From Thozetella sp. PMI_491 (Eukaryota; Ascomycota; Sordariomycetes; Chaetosphaeriales; Chaetosphaeriaceae), in assembly GCA_021432635.1 (NCBI GenBank), contig MU270025.1, positions 1,092,256-1,156,255 of the forward strand: a DNA stretch of 64,000 nucleotides. Direction: 5' to 3'. The stretch's first letter is position 1, and every line of letters begins with the position of its first letter. Shown piece after piece: positions 37,623-44,515 of the stretch. Under the pieces are notes generated by a model. That model saw nothing but the letters and a program-made list of their open reading frames with translations, ran no database searches and was not told the DNA's origin. The position numbers were made by a program, and so were the translations under genes.

Positions 37623-40195
37623 TTACTTGCCGCCATCCACAGCCTTGGTGAGAGCTTCGTATCCCTGCGGGATCGCCCAGTCCTCCAAGAACTGTCGCCT
37701 TCGGTCCAACGCCTCCTCTCCGTGCTTCTCCACCAGCTTCGCGCGCTGCCTCGCCATCCGCAGCATCCTCTTGCGCTCCCCACCCACCATGTCCTCCGGC
37801 GCCTGAGCTATGATGCGCTCGTCAATGTACCGCAGTGCGGCGTCGTCTGTGGTCGTCCACACGCCGGAGTGCTGCGGGATCGCCTCGTGCTTGCAAAACG
37901 CCTCTAGGACCATACCCGTGAGATGCTTGTCCATGTTGGTGCACTTGTACGCCTTGATCACGTCGTAGGCGTCGATACCGAGGGATACTAGTCGGTCGAT
38001 TTCTTCCTCAAAATTAAAACCCAGTTTGGGCGCGGAGCTCGGCTTAGGGGTGTTGGCCTCCCTAGTCGCCGCTGAGGAGGTGAGAGTTGTGTTGGTGCTT
38101 CTGGGTGGCCCGACTTGCAAACGGGAAGTTGGCGAGGAGGGTTCGCTCGACGGCCCTCCTAGAGGTACCGTGCGAGAGCTCATGCTAAGAAACTCACGCT
38201 GAAGCTGCTGCGAGGGCGATGGAGACGGCGTCCGGTCCTCCCGTCCATATATGAAACCAAAATCCTGAGTCTCCGGCTCGACCGGCCTAGCAGGGACAGC
38301 CTTTTGAGGTGAAAGCTCTCTTGGAGCCTCCGGCCGTGTTACCGATGCTGCTATTTGTTCAGACGACGAGGGTGCGGCCGGGGCCGTCAGGGGAGTGTCC
38401 TCTTGCGGTGACTCAGGGACGACCTCATCTCGGTCATACTCGCGGCGTTTACGCGAAGGAGACTGGAAGGAGATTGAGGATTGGAAGCCGCGCTGGAAGG
38501 TTTGGTCCCATGTTCGCTTGGCGCCTGCTACGGGAGGTGACGATCGAAAGACCGGAGCGGGAGACGGTGCCGCCCGCGCTTGCTCTGCTGTTGCGGAGGT
38601 ATCATCGGCATCGGAATCATCAGAATCCTGGTCTTCATCGAGATACTCCCGTCTTAGAACCTCAAATTTCAGTAAGTGAAGGTCAAATGCCTTCTTGAGC
38701 TGATGGGTGACGGTTGGGTTCGATACCCAGTCAAAGTCTAGTTCCTTGGCCACGTCCTCCCAGTCCCGCACGTCGTGATCAACAGTTTGGCGCGTGACGG
38801 CGGACCAGAGGTCCCACAGATCGACCGGACGCCGCGTAATGGTGACCGACGTCACCGGTGGCTTGTCAATGGCAGTTCGGTATGCTTGGAAGTGCTCATA
38901 GAACTGAGCTCGGGCGTGAGAATTAGATGATGATGGCTGAGCAGCCCCTCTCTGTGTAACAGGCTCCGTTCGCACGGGAGGGAATTCAGTGTCGGACTGA
39001 CCGCTCCCTGAAAGGTCGGACTGAGGCTCGGGAGTGACTGCGACACGGCGAGTCCCAGGGGTAGAAGGCGCGGGCCGGGGACCCGACCTGGCCACCCTCG
39101 GGGACGGGCTTTTGGAAGGTGTGGTCCTTGCTGGAGAGCGGGGCGGGGGGATTCTTTTCGTGCCTTTTTTCTGCGCTGGTTCTGAGCTTTTGTCCTGTTG
39201 ATTTGTCGACGGTGGTGGTGTCGTCGAGGCTGGTTCTTCAACAGAGTGCGAGACCCTCTTGACCCATCGCTCTCGCCACGACTGCCACGTATGTCTAGGG
39301 TTCTACGACCCAAGATTGTGGTTAGAATAAGAATCGAGGACGGGGGCAGGATTGGCAAAGGTCTTACATCTTCTGCCAACTCCTTGAAGATCTTGGTACC
39401 GCTGGTGCCGACTCCTCCGTTCTCGGGACGCAGTATCCACGCACGCAAATATTCATCGTCTTCTTTAGTGAAAGCTGTCCTCGTGCCTTTCGCTACAACT
39501 TTCTCGTCCCTCTTAGGCTCAGGTACCTCGACGGTGGCGGAAGCAGAGACTCCCTGGCCCCCATGAGTCTCCTGGGGACTCTCTCTAATGTCCGCCGAAG
39601 GCGCCAGTTTCTTGACCCATCTGTCTCGCCACGACTGCCAGGTATGCCGTGGATTCTGCCGCACATTAGTGCCCGAAAGAAGAAGAAGAAAGGCTGGCGG
39701 CGAGATCGTACCTTCTCGGCAAGGTCCTTGAAGATGATGTTCCCACTGGTCCCTGCCTCCTTGCTCGCCGGCCGCGCCACCCACAGGCGCAAGAGCTTAT
39801 CATCCTCGCTAGAGAACGGAACTCTTGTGCCTTTGGCGGTGCCTGAGGCTGCGGGGCCAGGGCCTCTGCTGGAGCGGTGAATGCGCCGGTCTTCCAGGTC
39901 CTCCAAGCGGCCATGCTTCACCGACTCGGTGATGAACAACCACGAGACGAAATCACCGGCGGGGACATCCTTTCGTGCATGGTCCGCGACTAGGATGTCT
40001 GCTTGCTTCTCCAGAGGCACTATAGTGCCGCCGTGGTCCTGCGCTGCCGTCAGTGAAGGTTGTTCAAGGGGCAAAAGCACCCACAAGGTGCCGGGCGCGG
40101 AAACGGACCTTGACTGTCTGGACCAGGGACAGGCGACTCGGAACGCGCTGGACGATAAAGAACTTGAGGTCCTTGAACAGTTCCGACGGCGCCAT
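37623..40195 (-). CDS. rap1: Rap1-type telomere protein: BRCT-Myb-Myb-ARID-RCT
   Basis: Exons are 40195-40109, 40038-39712, 39655-39368 and 39302-37623, all joined in phase 0, giving 793 aa. Domains in order: BRCT about residues 1-85 (LFKDLKFFIVQRVPSR, then HGGTIV...ADILVADH); Myb-like repeat 1 about 99-158 and repeat 2 about 195-255, each with GTR..F..EDD...W..RP and NPRHTWQSWR; a disordered Ser/Pro region; an ARID-like domain about 365-450 (FYEHFQAYR, RPVDLWDLWSAV, WEDVAKELDFD, TVTHQLKKAF); another disordered stretch; and a Rap1 C-terminal domain from about 662. Rap1 proteins cap and silence telomeres and regulate length; fungal forms are nuclear. Each Myb repeat is split by an intron at the same site before NPRHTW. 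A telomeric repeat lies in the leader. Identity as Rap1 rests on the N- and C-terminal domains together. Confidence 0.9.
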
Positions 40196-40262
40196 GATGG
40201 CCACCTCGTTGATGTTTATTTTCAGATGCGCGCTGGGGCAGGGGTTGGGAAGGCGAGTAGGC

Positions 40263-40277
40263 CCCTAACCCTAACCC
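40263..40277 (-). repeat. Interstitial telomeric repeat in the rap1 leader/promoter
   Basis: The plus strand reads CCCTAACCCTAACCC, so the minus (rap1 sense) strand reads GGGTTAGGGTTAGGG, two perfect TTAGGG units plus GGG. It ends 68 nt upstream of the rap1 ATG. TTAGGG is the telomere unit of most filamentous ascomycetes. Confidence 0.95.
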
Positions 40278-41160
40278 AGGTGTGGGGAGGGGGGGGGGTT
40301 TGTTTGTGGTCGCGAAAAGGGGGAGTGAAGATGCGACGCAGAGGGCGACCGCGTCGTAGAAAGGGTTGCCGAAAACGAACCACTGATGGCAGATCAAACT
40401 GCAAGATCGGGCGACAATGCAGCCTCTTCGCGCGCGGTCCCTTATAAAGGACCGCCGAAAAGGGAATGCCCTGTCGGCGTCGTGGGCTGACTGGGTTATG
40501 GGAGGCGCGATGTGCTCGGGGGCGGCGTGATGACGGCGACGCGTGATGGGCCCGCGGGCGCAGGCGCGGTCTCACGGGAGTGTGGCCGGAGCACGCTTGT
40601 GCACTGGTCAACTGGGGTGCGCCGGGTCCACGGGCCAACTGACTACGGGTGGTGAGTGTCGATGTGGGGTCTCGTGGCACCCGTGCCGTTTTAGCGCTTT
40701 AGCCATGGGCCGTGAGACGCTGCGTCGGGTGCCTGGCCGTGCGGGCGTTTTGGGGGTTGAGTGTGAGGGAGCAGGCGAAAGAGGACCGCGTCACCCCCAC
40801 GAGGCGACGAGGCGGGAGGCTACGGGAGATCAGCTGAATGGCGCGCCTCGGCTCTGGTGTGTGCTCGCGGATTCGCGTAGGTAGTCCACCGGCCGGCGGT
40901 CCACTGTAGACACTGAAAGGAGTCCCCTGCCGCCGGGGAGCCACTCAGCTGGGAAAGGGAGGGGTTGACTCGGAACGAAGGTGCGGCCGCTGCAAACCCA
41001 TGCGCTGTCAAGAAAAAAAACGGCCGCTGCTCCGGAGCCGCTGACATCACGCTGCGGGTCCCTGGCCACTAATACTGTACTTCGCAAAGTAGCACTGTCG
41101 TATCACGGCTACGGAGTACTCTGGGGGAGGTGACGTCCCGCTAATAAGGGTAGTATGCCC

Positions 41161-41192
41161 CCCCTGTGCCCCTGTGCCGCTGTGCCGCTCTG
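41161..41192 (+). repeat. Four-copy 8-bp repeat CCSCTGTG
   Basis: Four tandem 8-mers: CCCCTGTG twice, CCGCTGTG, then CCGCTCTG. It lies in the rap1/SWF1 intergenic region. Confidence 0.85.
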
Positions 41193-41282
41193 CCGCCCGG
41201 TTGATGGGTCCTAGGCTTGGGCTTCAGAGCGCCGTTCGTATGTGGGCGCAGGGCCGATCCTGACACGCAACCAGCCCGGCCC

Positions 41283-41316
41283 GGAAGGGGAAGGGGAAGG
41301 GGAAGGGGAAAGAAGG
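41283..41316 (+). repeat. GGGGAA purine tract with G-quadruplex potential
   Basis: Four GGGG runs at 41287-41308 are separated by AA spacers, fitting the G4 rule (four G-runs with 2-nt loops). It is about 200 nt upstream of the SWF1 ATG on the sense strand, so it may lie in the 5' UTR or promoter. Confidence 0.8.
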
Positions 41317-41507
41317 CTCGTGCCTATTTTTCCCCCTCGCTTTTCTCCCACCAGCGAAACATCTCCCCGGGGACACACACACAAGACAAAGTCACCGCGA
41401 CCCCTCGCTTACGGGGGACCTGCCATGCATCCCGTGATTTGATTCTTGGACACGGGCGATTTGGTCGCTGGGTCGTTCGGTCAGGAGCAACAATAGGGAC
41501 TGGCAAG

Positions 41508-43105
41508 ATGGGGCCGCTTGCGAAAATCATCGCCGCCATTTTGGGCATCTCCTTCTTTGTTTTTGTCACCTTCTTTGGCCGCCTGCCGGCCCTGAGGTGA
41601 GTGCGCCAACTCCGCCGCGTGTCCCTTTCGACGGCTTTGCCTCCCTTCCAGATTCATGTCGGTCCCGGGCCGCCGCTGACATTTCTTTTTCTCTCTCTTT
41701 TCTCTCTAGGCACACCCCGATCGCCTTCTTGCATCGCGTAATCTGGGTGCATATCCCAAATGCATTGTATAAGGTCGACTTAGCGCTCACCTCGGGCCGG
41801 GTGACATCGTACACGTCGAGGTTTATGAACTACATGCTGTACGACAGGCACCCGACGGTTCTGGTAAGGCCTTCAGGCACCCTCTATCTGTGTTGACACT
41901 TTGTCTTTGGACCACGGCACTCGTGATCGGCAGCGGTTCGCTCTTTGTCTCTTGGAGCCTCGGATGGCTGCCGACAATGCCCGGTCCCCGGCCCCGCTCG
42001 GCTCGGGGGGGGGGGGGTCTTTCAAGACCACAGCATGGCCACACGGCTAGTGCATGCGGGAGTGGCGTGGCTAACATATCTCTAGATATTCTTTTTTCTC
42101 CTGCTTTCGGTTGGGGAGTACATGTACCTGCCCACAGCATGGCCGCAGTTGAGCACCTTCCACAAGGTGGCCGGCAGTTTTGCCATGGTCTTCCCTTATG
42201 TCTTCCTCTACCTGGCCTCCTTCAGCGACCCAGGGTACGTCACGCCGGCGAACCACGCGCACGAGATGGCGCGCTACCCCTATGACTACACCATCTTTCA
42301 CCCGGGTTCCGAGTGCCGCACCTGCAAGCTGCTCAAGCCCGCGCGGTCGAAGCACTGCAGCGTGTGCAAGCGCTGCATATCACGCCTGGACCACCACTGC
42401 ATCTTCATCAACAACTGCGTCGGTGCTGGGAACCAGCACTGGTTCATCCTCCTGCTGCTCAGCACCGGCGCGCTGACTGTGTACGGTGGCGTACTGGGCG
42501 TGAGCATCATTACGGCTAAGATCACCGAGCAGTATCCGTACTGGAGCATGTGGCCCTGGAGCGCGAACGGCGGTGAGGGCATTGTGCTGAAGGAATGGCT
42601 TCTTCTCTGGAGCTGGGGGCTCCAGGACATGGTCTCGATGGGCGCCGTGACGTTCCTGGCCATCATGACGAGCCCCTTGACGTGGAGCCTGCTGGGCTAC
42701 CACATCTATCTGATCTACTGCGGCACGACCACCAATGAGACGCTCAAGTGGGGGGACTGGCAGCTCGAGATGGACGACGGGTGCGCTTTCAAGCGGACTA
42801 TGCCGTCAGACCGGGTGAAGGACTCGCAGGTTGAGGCTATCTGGACCAGGTGGCCCGTCGAGACGGAGCAGATAATGCTGCGAACCAACGACGGCAAACC
42901 GCCGGCGGCGCACCTGATCCTCCCAGGCGAGGGCGAGTGGGAGCGAGTGTGGAACCTCCGGGATGTTGAGAATCTCTACGACCTGGGCTTCTGGGACAAC
43001 CTCATCGACGTGTTCTTTCCCGGCTACCAGTTCAGGGATAGCCAGACCCCGATGTCGGAGGGGAGCTATACGCGGAAGAGGAAAAAGAGAAAAGGACGCA
43101 AGTGA
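41508..43105 (+). CDS. swf1: DHHC palmitoyltransferase, Swf1 type
   Basis: Exons are 41508-41596, 41710-41863 and 42086-43105, giving 420 aa. Introns of 113 and 222 nt have GTGAGT and GTAAGG donors and CTCTAG acceptors. Exon 1 encodes an N-terminal membrane helix (ILGISFFVFVTFF). The cysteine-rich domain begins CRTCKLLKPARSKHCSVCKRC and holds the catalytic DHHC at residues 183-186. Membrane segments flank it: IFFFLLLSVGEYMYL and AMVFPYVFLYLASF before, WFILLLLSTGALTVYGGV and later helices after. The tail is strongly basic (RKRKKRKGRK). In yeast Swf1 sits in the ER and palmitoylates SNAREs such as Tlg1; the role here is inferred from that. The first ATG in exon 1 is used. Confidence 0.93.
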
Positions 43106-43336
43106 GGCGGACGGATTGTCCTTTTGGGGGGGGGGGGGGGTCATCCCAAGCGGAAGAGGCGGGACAATAGTAGAGTAGAACCTCGTGCCAGGCATTCTTT
43201 TATACAGCGGAGGGTGCTGCCCAGACCATTGGCCTTGGCCTGGACACCTCGGGGTATCAGCTCGTCACCGAAAGAAGTTTTGTACAGTGGATAAATATAC
43301 AGGATAAAGTTGTACAAGACATCATCCCCTCTCGTG

Positions 43337-44515
43337 TCAAAAGGACGGTGGTGGCCGCTGCTGCGGGCTTGACGACATGCGCGCGAACAATTCGTCAAAC
43401 GACACAATCTTGCCGCTGCTCGGCGTGACAGCGCCGAACGAGAGGTCCCGGGTGTCTTGGACGAGGCCGGCCATGCGGCAGATAGCAAGCCTTGCTCCTT
43501 CGACGCCAATCCCGCCGTGCTTAGGATCGCCCGCGCCGGTAATCCAGACCTCGGGTTCCCAGCCTTTCCCCTCGACCCAAGTCAAGCTGCCCTTCTCGGC
43601 GGCCCGCAGCTCCTTCCAGACGCTCAGGCACGTCTTCTGGATGTCGGCGTCGCCCGAGCCCAGCCCGTACCCGAGCTTGTCCGCCTTGGTGAGGACGACA
43701 GCCGTCCGCACGTTGGCGTCCCGCAGCAAGCCCAGCACGGCGCGGTCCCCATCCTTCACGCCGGCCACGGCATCGATCAGCAGGATTGCGCCACGCAGCA
43801 TGGCACGGCGACCTAGATATTTGGCTATCTCGACACCCCACGCTGTTTTAGAGTTAAGGCCGTAGCCGGGCATGTCCATCATGACTAGGCTGTGCGCCGG
43901 CGGCCGCTCCCTCCTCTTCTTCTCGGCGCGCTTCTCCGTTCTGCCGACGCCCAAGCCCGACCCCTTCTCGTCTCCTTCCTCCCGTCGCGACGGCGGGAGC
44001 GTCTTCATAGGCAGGCCGAACCCGTAAGCATTCATGGTTGTCGTACAACCCGCCTTGGTGCTCGTCATGGCCAGGCCCGCGCGCTTCGATGCATTTCCGT
44101 GAATCTTCCCGGCGCTCGCGCTGGACCGCCCCGACAGCGCATTGATCAGCGTCGACTTGCCCACGTTGGAGCGCCCGAGGATGCACACCTCGGGCATGTG
44201 GCTATTGATTGGGATGTGTAGGAACCGCGGCGCCGCATACATAAATTTGGGCCGCTGTTTGGTGAAAATCTCGGTCGCCGCCTCGAGGACCGAGGCCGTA
44301 GGGGGCGGAGAGGGGTTGGCGCGCTGGTCGGGGATGTTCGAAGGCGTGGGGAGGTATGAGATAGGGATAGGAGGTTCGGCGAGGTCTTCGGAGGCACCGC
44401 CGGCGCTGGACATAGACCGAGGCGAGAGACTCGACCGCGTCAGGGCTGCCTGGAGGACGAGATGACGCAGCGTGGGCGGCATCGCCAGCAGCTTGGCTAG
44501 TTGTGGCCGCGTCAT
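43337..44515 (-). CDS. EngB/YihA-type mitochondrial GTPase (Mrx8-like)
   Basis: A single exon encodes 392 aa. The G1 loop GRSNVGKST is at residues 114-122, followed by the EngB-type switch region TSTKAGCTTTMNAYGF, G3 DMPGYG and G4 TKAD. A basic insert of roughly 40 residues (SRREEGDEKG... KRRERPP) lies before G3. The first 40 residues are rich in Arg, Leu and Ser with few acids, a likely mitochondrial presequence. Bacterial EngB acts in large-subunit ribosome assembly, and the yeast homologue Mrx8 is a mitochondrial translation/ribosome factor; the role here is inferred. The start at 44515 is chosen; an in-frame ATG at 44692 would extend it by 59 residues and shorten the shared promoter to about 150 nt. 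Confidence 0.9.
   Translation of the reverse strand: MTRPQLAKLLAMPPTLRHLVLQAALTRSSLSPRSMSSAGGASEDLAEPPIPISYLPTPSNIPDQRANPSPPPTASVLEAATEIFTKQRPKFMYAAPRFLHIPINSHMPEVCILGRSNVGKSTLINALSGRSSASAGKIHGNASKRAGLAMTSTKAGCTTTMNAYGFGLPMKTLPPSRREEGDEKGSGLGVGRTEKRAEKKRRERPPAHSLVMMDMPGYGLNSKTAWGVEIAKYLGRRAMLRGAILLIDAVAGVKDGDRAVLGLLRDANVRTAVVLTKADKLGYGLGSGDADIQKTCLSVWKELRAAEKGSLTWVEGKGWEPEVWITGAGDPKHGGIGVEGARLAICRMAGLVQDTRDLSFGAVTPSSGKIVSFDELFARMSSSPQQRPPPSF

Follow-up and report, generated by a model that had tools for sequence, protein, structure and literature searches.

Budding yeast RAP1, the gene of a telomere protein, is autoregulated and has a site for a telomere factor upstream, and yeast Rap1 directly binds a sequence other than TTAGGG. 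Tbf1-like and Tay1-like proteins have shifted between telomere and promoter work in the course of fungal evolution. In the available part of one report Tbf1 has the role of a general regulatory factor at promoters in yeast (PMC6410037), and its consensus is quoted as ARCCCTA in the accessible text of another (PMC10985990). An excerpted account of two yeasts gives the TTAGGG motifs of S. cerevisiae as free in spacing and orientation, and the Tbf1 site of Candida albicans as TTAGGGN6CCCTAA (PMC2834713). S. pombe Teb1 and Ustilago Tay1 appear in partial sources as Myb proteins that recognise TTAGGG or tandem GGGTTA, with Teb1 acting as a transcription factor. For Ustilago Trf2 and Tay1, the available excerpt states that a probe with two GGGTTA copies was bound, more weakly than longer probes, and that a one-copy probe was unbound (PMC7744550).

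We recognised no description of such an element in a filamentous ascomycete in the portions of the literature that were available. The locus studied here, in Thozetella sp. PMI_491, is like budding-yeast RAP1 autoregulation in having a telomere-factor-type site upstream of a telomere-protein gene, and unlike it in that the likely reader would be a Tbf1-type protein. As with the Tbf1 sites of budding yeast and C. albicans, a TTAGGG core lies upstream of genes, and the genome appears to encode a protein of the Tbf1 type that has TRFH and Myb domains. In contrast to those sites, the element consists of two direct tandem units, mainly in one register, and its binding is predicted; the copy at rap1 has no palindrome of the C. 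albicans type, only the direct tandem. Recognition of tandem units by a Myb protein, as in Teb1 and Tay1, is what we propose here.

The rap1 gene and its upstream sequence

The gene lies on the minus strand of the window, by which we mean the whole 64-kb stretch of DNA analysed. Exon 1 (40109..40195) has the ATG at 40195 and begins the BRCT domain, exon 2 (39712..40038) encodes the rest of that domain and the first part of Myb 1, exon 3 (39368..39655) the end of Myb 1 and the first part of Myb 2, and exon 4 (37623..39302) the end of Myb 2, the ARID domain, the Rap1 C-terminal domain and the stop. Over its full length this four-exon model was identical to a database protein of 793 aa from Thozetella sp. 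PMI_491, whose annotated start is thus the ATG at 40195; an in-frame stop 5' of the ATG was read by eye. The database domains of the whole protein are BRCT_2, Myb_Rap1, Rap1-DNA-bind, ARID and Rap1_C. When the exons were searched one by one, Myb_Rap1 (the second copy), ARID and Rap1_C scored above the curated cut-off, and BRCT_2 below it. The domain set and the identity to the database protein bear out the original prediction that this is the gene of a Rap1-type telomere protein.

This Rap1 has two Rap1-type Myb domains. Among the 120 listed of 145 proteins (its own entry included), Myb_Rap1 was counted once in 60, twice in 56 and three times in four. The two Myb domains (window 39302-40038) are very similar, and a phase-0 intron interrupts each of them at the equivalent point, a pattern that suggests origin of the pair by internal duplication. 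The ARID domain stands between the Myb and C-terminal domains (window 37623-39095), as it does in many, though not all, of the listed relatives.

The telomere-like element occupies positions 40262-40277 on the minus strand. The plus strand there reads CCCCTAACCCTAACCC and the rap1 sense strand GGGTTAGGGTTAGGGG, so that the perfect telomere-type repeat predicted before rap1 on its sense strand can be read directly in the window. Its 12-base core, GGGTTAGGGTTA, spans 40266-40277 (minus strand of C11:1132521-1132532 in the genome). The element contains two intact GGGTTA copies and the TTAGGG (ARCCCTA) core of a Tbf1-type site. From its last G (40262) to the ATG (40195) there are 66 bases; the gap was originally given as 68 nt, the difference between 40263 and 40195, and the placement just upstream of the gene holds while that exact figure does not. 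The intergenic stretch (40196..41507) separates rap1 from a divergent DHHC palmitoyltransferase gene on the plus strand, with its ATG at 41508 (by eye) and its DHHC domain within 42122-43105.

All TTAGGG matches of this intergenic stretch fall inside the element, and the nearest others in the window lie at 38044 and 46284. The 64 kb contain TTAGGGTTAGGG a single time, as the sole tandem TTAGGG pair, and it was present in none of 100 dinucleotide shuffles. Single TTAGGG hexamers are rarer than expected (10 observed against a shuffle mean of 23.4); the window is thus depleted of the single hexamer, whereas the tandem word is enriched genome-wide.

The plus strand CCCTAACCCTAACCC is template-like, and one reading is that a telomerase RNA gene lies between rap1 and the divergent gene and that this sequence is its template. 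Fungal templates do contain CCCUAA, for example CUAACCCUAAC in two Aspergillus-group species, according to the available part of one report (PMC3603654). However, the window from 38500 to 43500 gave no Telomerase_Asco match at E values up to 5, and we consider this reading very improbable. Telomerase RNA was also sought at the loci of 29 of the 41 genomic places of TTAGGGTTAGGG, with no match at Rfam gathering thresholds.

Two-unit telomere words in the genome

The genome (72.3 Mb in 157 contigs) was scanned for two-unit telomere words, with each word read backwards as its control. AGGGTTAGGGTT gave 255 matches (18 in the control), GGGTTAGGGTTA 160, with the rap1 site among them (15), and GGTTAGGGTTAG 73 (18), and TTAGGGTTAGGG had 52 overlapping matches at 41 places (12). 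A scrambled word, GGGTATGGGTAT, was found nine times (control 8), and the excess of an 11-base word, TTAGGGTTAGG, was smaller, with 70 matches against 42 backwards. The two-unit word is therefore over-represented genome-wide, chiefly in one register, and short elements that fit (A/G)GGGTTAGGGTT(A) make up a large genomic set. The original prediction had held a match at this place to be unlikely by chance; this stands against shuffled sequence, but not in the sense of a unique site, as the genome has 160 copies of GGGTTAGGGTTA and 255 of AGGGTTAGGGTT. The element before rap1 is real, and it is one of a few hundred of its kind. The rap1 copy deviates slightly from the consensus in having T directly before GGGTTAGGGTTA; in 26 sampled single-copy sites this base was A in 14, G in nine, C in two and T in one.

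Some of the matches lie in repeats. A single AT-rich repeat family accounts for eleven of the 41 TTAGGGTTAGGG places, and other repeats account for a few more. The AT-rich family has at least 11 copies (L001-L008, L014, L068 and L069), each with the site near position 1501, where two to four tandem TTAGGG units stand within a conserved flank; it is probably a mutated mobile element. In addition, GGGTTA followed by TATATGG recurs in apparent mobile elements (L123, L143, L119 and the contig end L079), and part of the 160 GGGTTAGGGTTA matches is accordingly repeat-borne. Three tandem TTAGGG units were matched 11 times at ten places, all within the 11-copy family, and none of 42 contig ends examined (22 starts, four of which read as N, and 20 ends) carried a TTAGGG array. 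On these two grounds the telomere unit of this species was not confirmed.

The unbroken telomere-type runs were short, at 12-15 bases in the 26 sampled single-copy GGGTTAGGGTTA sites and 12-13 bases in ten AGGGTTAGGGTT sites, as expected of a binding site. In 26 single-copy TTAGGGTTAGGG sites they measured 12-19 bases. These lengths bear on the idea that telomerase once healed a break here and that the site is the interstitial telomeric repeat that stayed behind. At rap1 the run is perfect and amounts to about 2.5 units, the genome has a gene for telomerase, and runs of 17-19 bases, about three units, occur at four of the 26 single-copy TTAGGGTTAGGG sites. Yet healing should leave arrays in all registers, some of them longer, and what we observed is that one register dominates and that the run stays within 15 bases at all 36 sites sampled from the two commonest registers. 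Preference for a single register could nonetheless come from a fixed template end; overall, we regard a healed break as a quite improbable origin. The extension of perfect phase beyond the word was tried as a measure of selection and was uninformative (mean 2.47 bases at 30 sites versus 1.75 at 12 control sites).

The Neurospora genome offers a comparison, in that interstitial telomeric repeats of fewer than four units lie inside its chromosomes too. In the accessible sections of that work they are described as rare (PMC5752202), whereas here the two-unit matches number in the hundreds, mainly in one register. The same sections state that in Neurospora telomere repeats are able to bring about methylation of H3K27, and a further partial source lists TTAGGG-like motifs as the top known motifs of accessible regions inside Neurospora Polycomb domains (PMC8214302). 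The rap1 element could on this basis be a seed of Polycomb (H3K27) silencing, or, alternatively, part of an RNA structure in the leader. However, the arrays inserted in Neurospora were 8 and 17 units long, and interstitial repeats with fewer than four showed, in the text available, no preference for H3K27me regions (PMC5752202). The rap1 leader folded no better than its shuffles (z 0.72). Silencing or leader structure therefore appears a highly unlikely role for the element.

Position of the elements relative to genes

To place the elements relative to genes, a simple coding score served as the guide to gene starts; it was a hexamer score, computed for each 290-bp flank at 51 single-copy sites that excluded rap1 itself (L022). 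Thirty GGGTTAGGGTTA places were taken in list order from the 160 matches and pooled with the TTAGGGTTAGGG places; places already covered or in the 11-copy family were left out, and five more (C1:3117034, C5:765385, C5:1333630, C6:1555815 and C9:8873) were omitted without a reason. Three loci were excluded as repeats (L117, L123 and L143) and a fourth, L119, which was a singleton in the repeat clustering, by eye; L024, L062, L066, L067 and the 11-copy family also stand outside the 51-site set. Ten extra AGGGTTAGGGTT sites were taken in list order where uncovered, with C4:46896 passed over.

At scores above 12, a threshold picked after inspection, 15 sides had coding directed away from the element and four had it directed toward the element (p 0.0096). 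Above 10, the counts were 28 and 12 (p 0.008), and above 8 the bias was weak (45 and 35); in all of these counts the two sides of a site are not independent. The ten extra AGGGTTAGGGTT sites gave two away and none toward at the highest threshold, four and two at the next, and eight of each at the lowest. Non-coding positions scoring above 12 divided into 147 away and 159 toward in the window, and into 37 and 57 at off-site positions of the same loci. The 12 control-word sites also leaned slightly away (11 against 8). A strong coding signal pointing away (above 12) was present on 15 of 102 sides, most sides having none within 290 bp. Together, these counts show a moderate tendency of the elements to sit 5' of genes more than 3'.

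Several of the neighbouring genes could be named. ORC2 lies 3' of an element, with its ATG 119 bases away, and the genes for PEX11, UMP1 and an importin are within about 350 bp 3' of one. Within the same distance were an N-terminal piece resembling LeuRS (E 0.008) and one resembling thymidylate synthase (E 5e-5), both matched to solved structures, so that elements probably neighbour these two genes as well. Farther from elements were Omp85/ubiquitin-conjugating, protein-kinase/MFS, Sybindin-family and mitochondrial-carrier genes. The G-rich strand is the sense strand at rap1 and thymidylate synthase and the antisense strand at ORC2 and LeuRS, and this mixed orientation is easier to reconcile with an element in DNA than with one in RNA. 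About 85 bases separate one of the elements from a tRNA gene (L057, 1301-1415) whose length suggests an intron.

These results also bear on neutral coincidence, whereby the word is enriched in the genome and the rap1 copy has no function for rap1. The matches do number hundreds, and the rap1 copy departs from the consensus before GGGTTA. Against this, 41 TTAGGGTTAGGG places in 72.3 Mb, if spread uniformly, would put about 6e-5 within 100 bp upstream of a given gene, and the set as a whole has a 5' bias. We hold coincidence to be an unlikely explanation.

Candidate binding proteins and the control of rap1

One TRFH-domain protein is encoded in the genome (C140:4794-5546, E 7e-40). In an open frame next to the TRFH domain there is a Myb domain that aligns with the solved domains of fission-yeast trf1 and budding-yeast TBF1. 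Judged from these domains in neighbouring open frames, the genome appears to encode a Tbf1-like protein with TRFH and a TTAGGG-type (telobox) Myb. In Aspergillus, the available text proposes that telomeres are bound by Tbf1, with the Aspergillus Rap1 retaining one DNA-binding site (PMC3603654).

We favour, at somewhat better than even confidence, the explanation that the site before rap1 is a Tbf1-type promoter element of which rap1 is one of many carriers. It would be a two-unit site, situated in the rap1 core promoter or leader, at which a Myb protein of the Tbf1/TRF type reads TTAGGG, and would belong to the genome-wide (A/G)GGGTTAGGGTT(A) set, whose function would be general regulatory and often at housekeeping promoters, probably by holding the promoter open. 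Tbf1, or a Tay1/Teb1-like protein, would bind the element, and its binding would alter rap1 transcription. An influence of telomere state on rap1 output could follow from the shared binding protein. The enrichment in one register, the 5' bias and the Tbf1/TRF gene make plausible that part of the original prediction which placed a site for a TTAGGG-binding factor in the rap1 promoter or leader; the dedicated feedback loop that it attached to the site did not fare as well, as discussed below.

A broader proposal, which we consider improbable, is that in this fungus the telomere-repeat reader also drives a few hundred promoters, many of them of housekeeping genes, through the fixed two-unit element, such that telomeres and genes compete for one protein. 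If this is true, a change in telomere length, or in the amount of reader available, would be answered jointly by Rap1, ORC2 and others. Whether a single protein still has two jobs could be tested in such a filamentous ascomycete, where telomere-like elements near gene starts favour one register and include the copy before rap1, and the site set forms a concrete list for a single ChIP experiment.

Dedicated feedback would differ from the Tbf1-type promoter element in that Rap1, by itself or with a DNA-binding partner, would bind its own promoter and set its expression by the amount of telomere-free protein. The position of the element, only 66 nt upstream of the start codon in the gene of a telomere protein, and its two intact GGGTTA copies are compatible with this. 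So is the Myb pair of this Rap1, since in ascomycete species the main part in telomere binding is assigned to Rap1 with two Mybs; however, the Rap1 of fission yeast does not bind DNA and is brought to telomeres by a partner, both statements being from the accessible part of one source (PMC4839565). Rap1 itself as the reader of the element is uncertain, given these two opposing precedents. Also to be set against feedback, the rap1 element is one of a few hundred, and housekeeping genes unrelated to telomeres bear it.

Other telomere genes bear on the same question. TTAGGG was absent from about 2 kb upstream of the TBF1 ATG and from 1.1 kb upstream of the TERT ATG. At the POT1-family locus L110, by comparison, a single TTAGGG stands about 375 bases before the matched stretch, which could be taken in favour of feedback, and two more lie behind its start. 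The two-unit element was not found before TBF1, TERT or the L110 match; a second POT1-like frame, at L109, runs off the stretch, with its promoter beyond it. With unrelated housekeeping genes carrying the element and no TTAGGG in the sequence upstream of TBF1 and TERT, the dedicated loop of the original prediction was not upheld. We consider such a loop improbable, and a special Rap1-sensing role of the rap1 site is, by inference, possible. The TTAGGG hexamers of L110 are antisense, at 1126, 1845 and 2000, around the POT1-family match.
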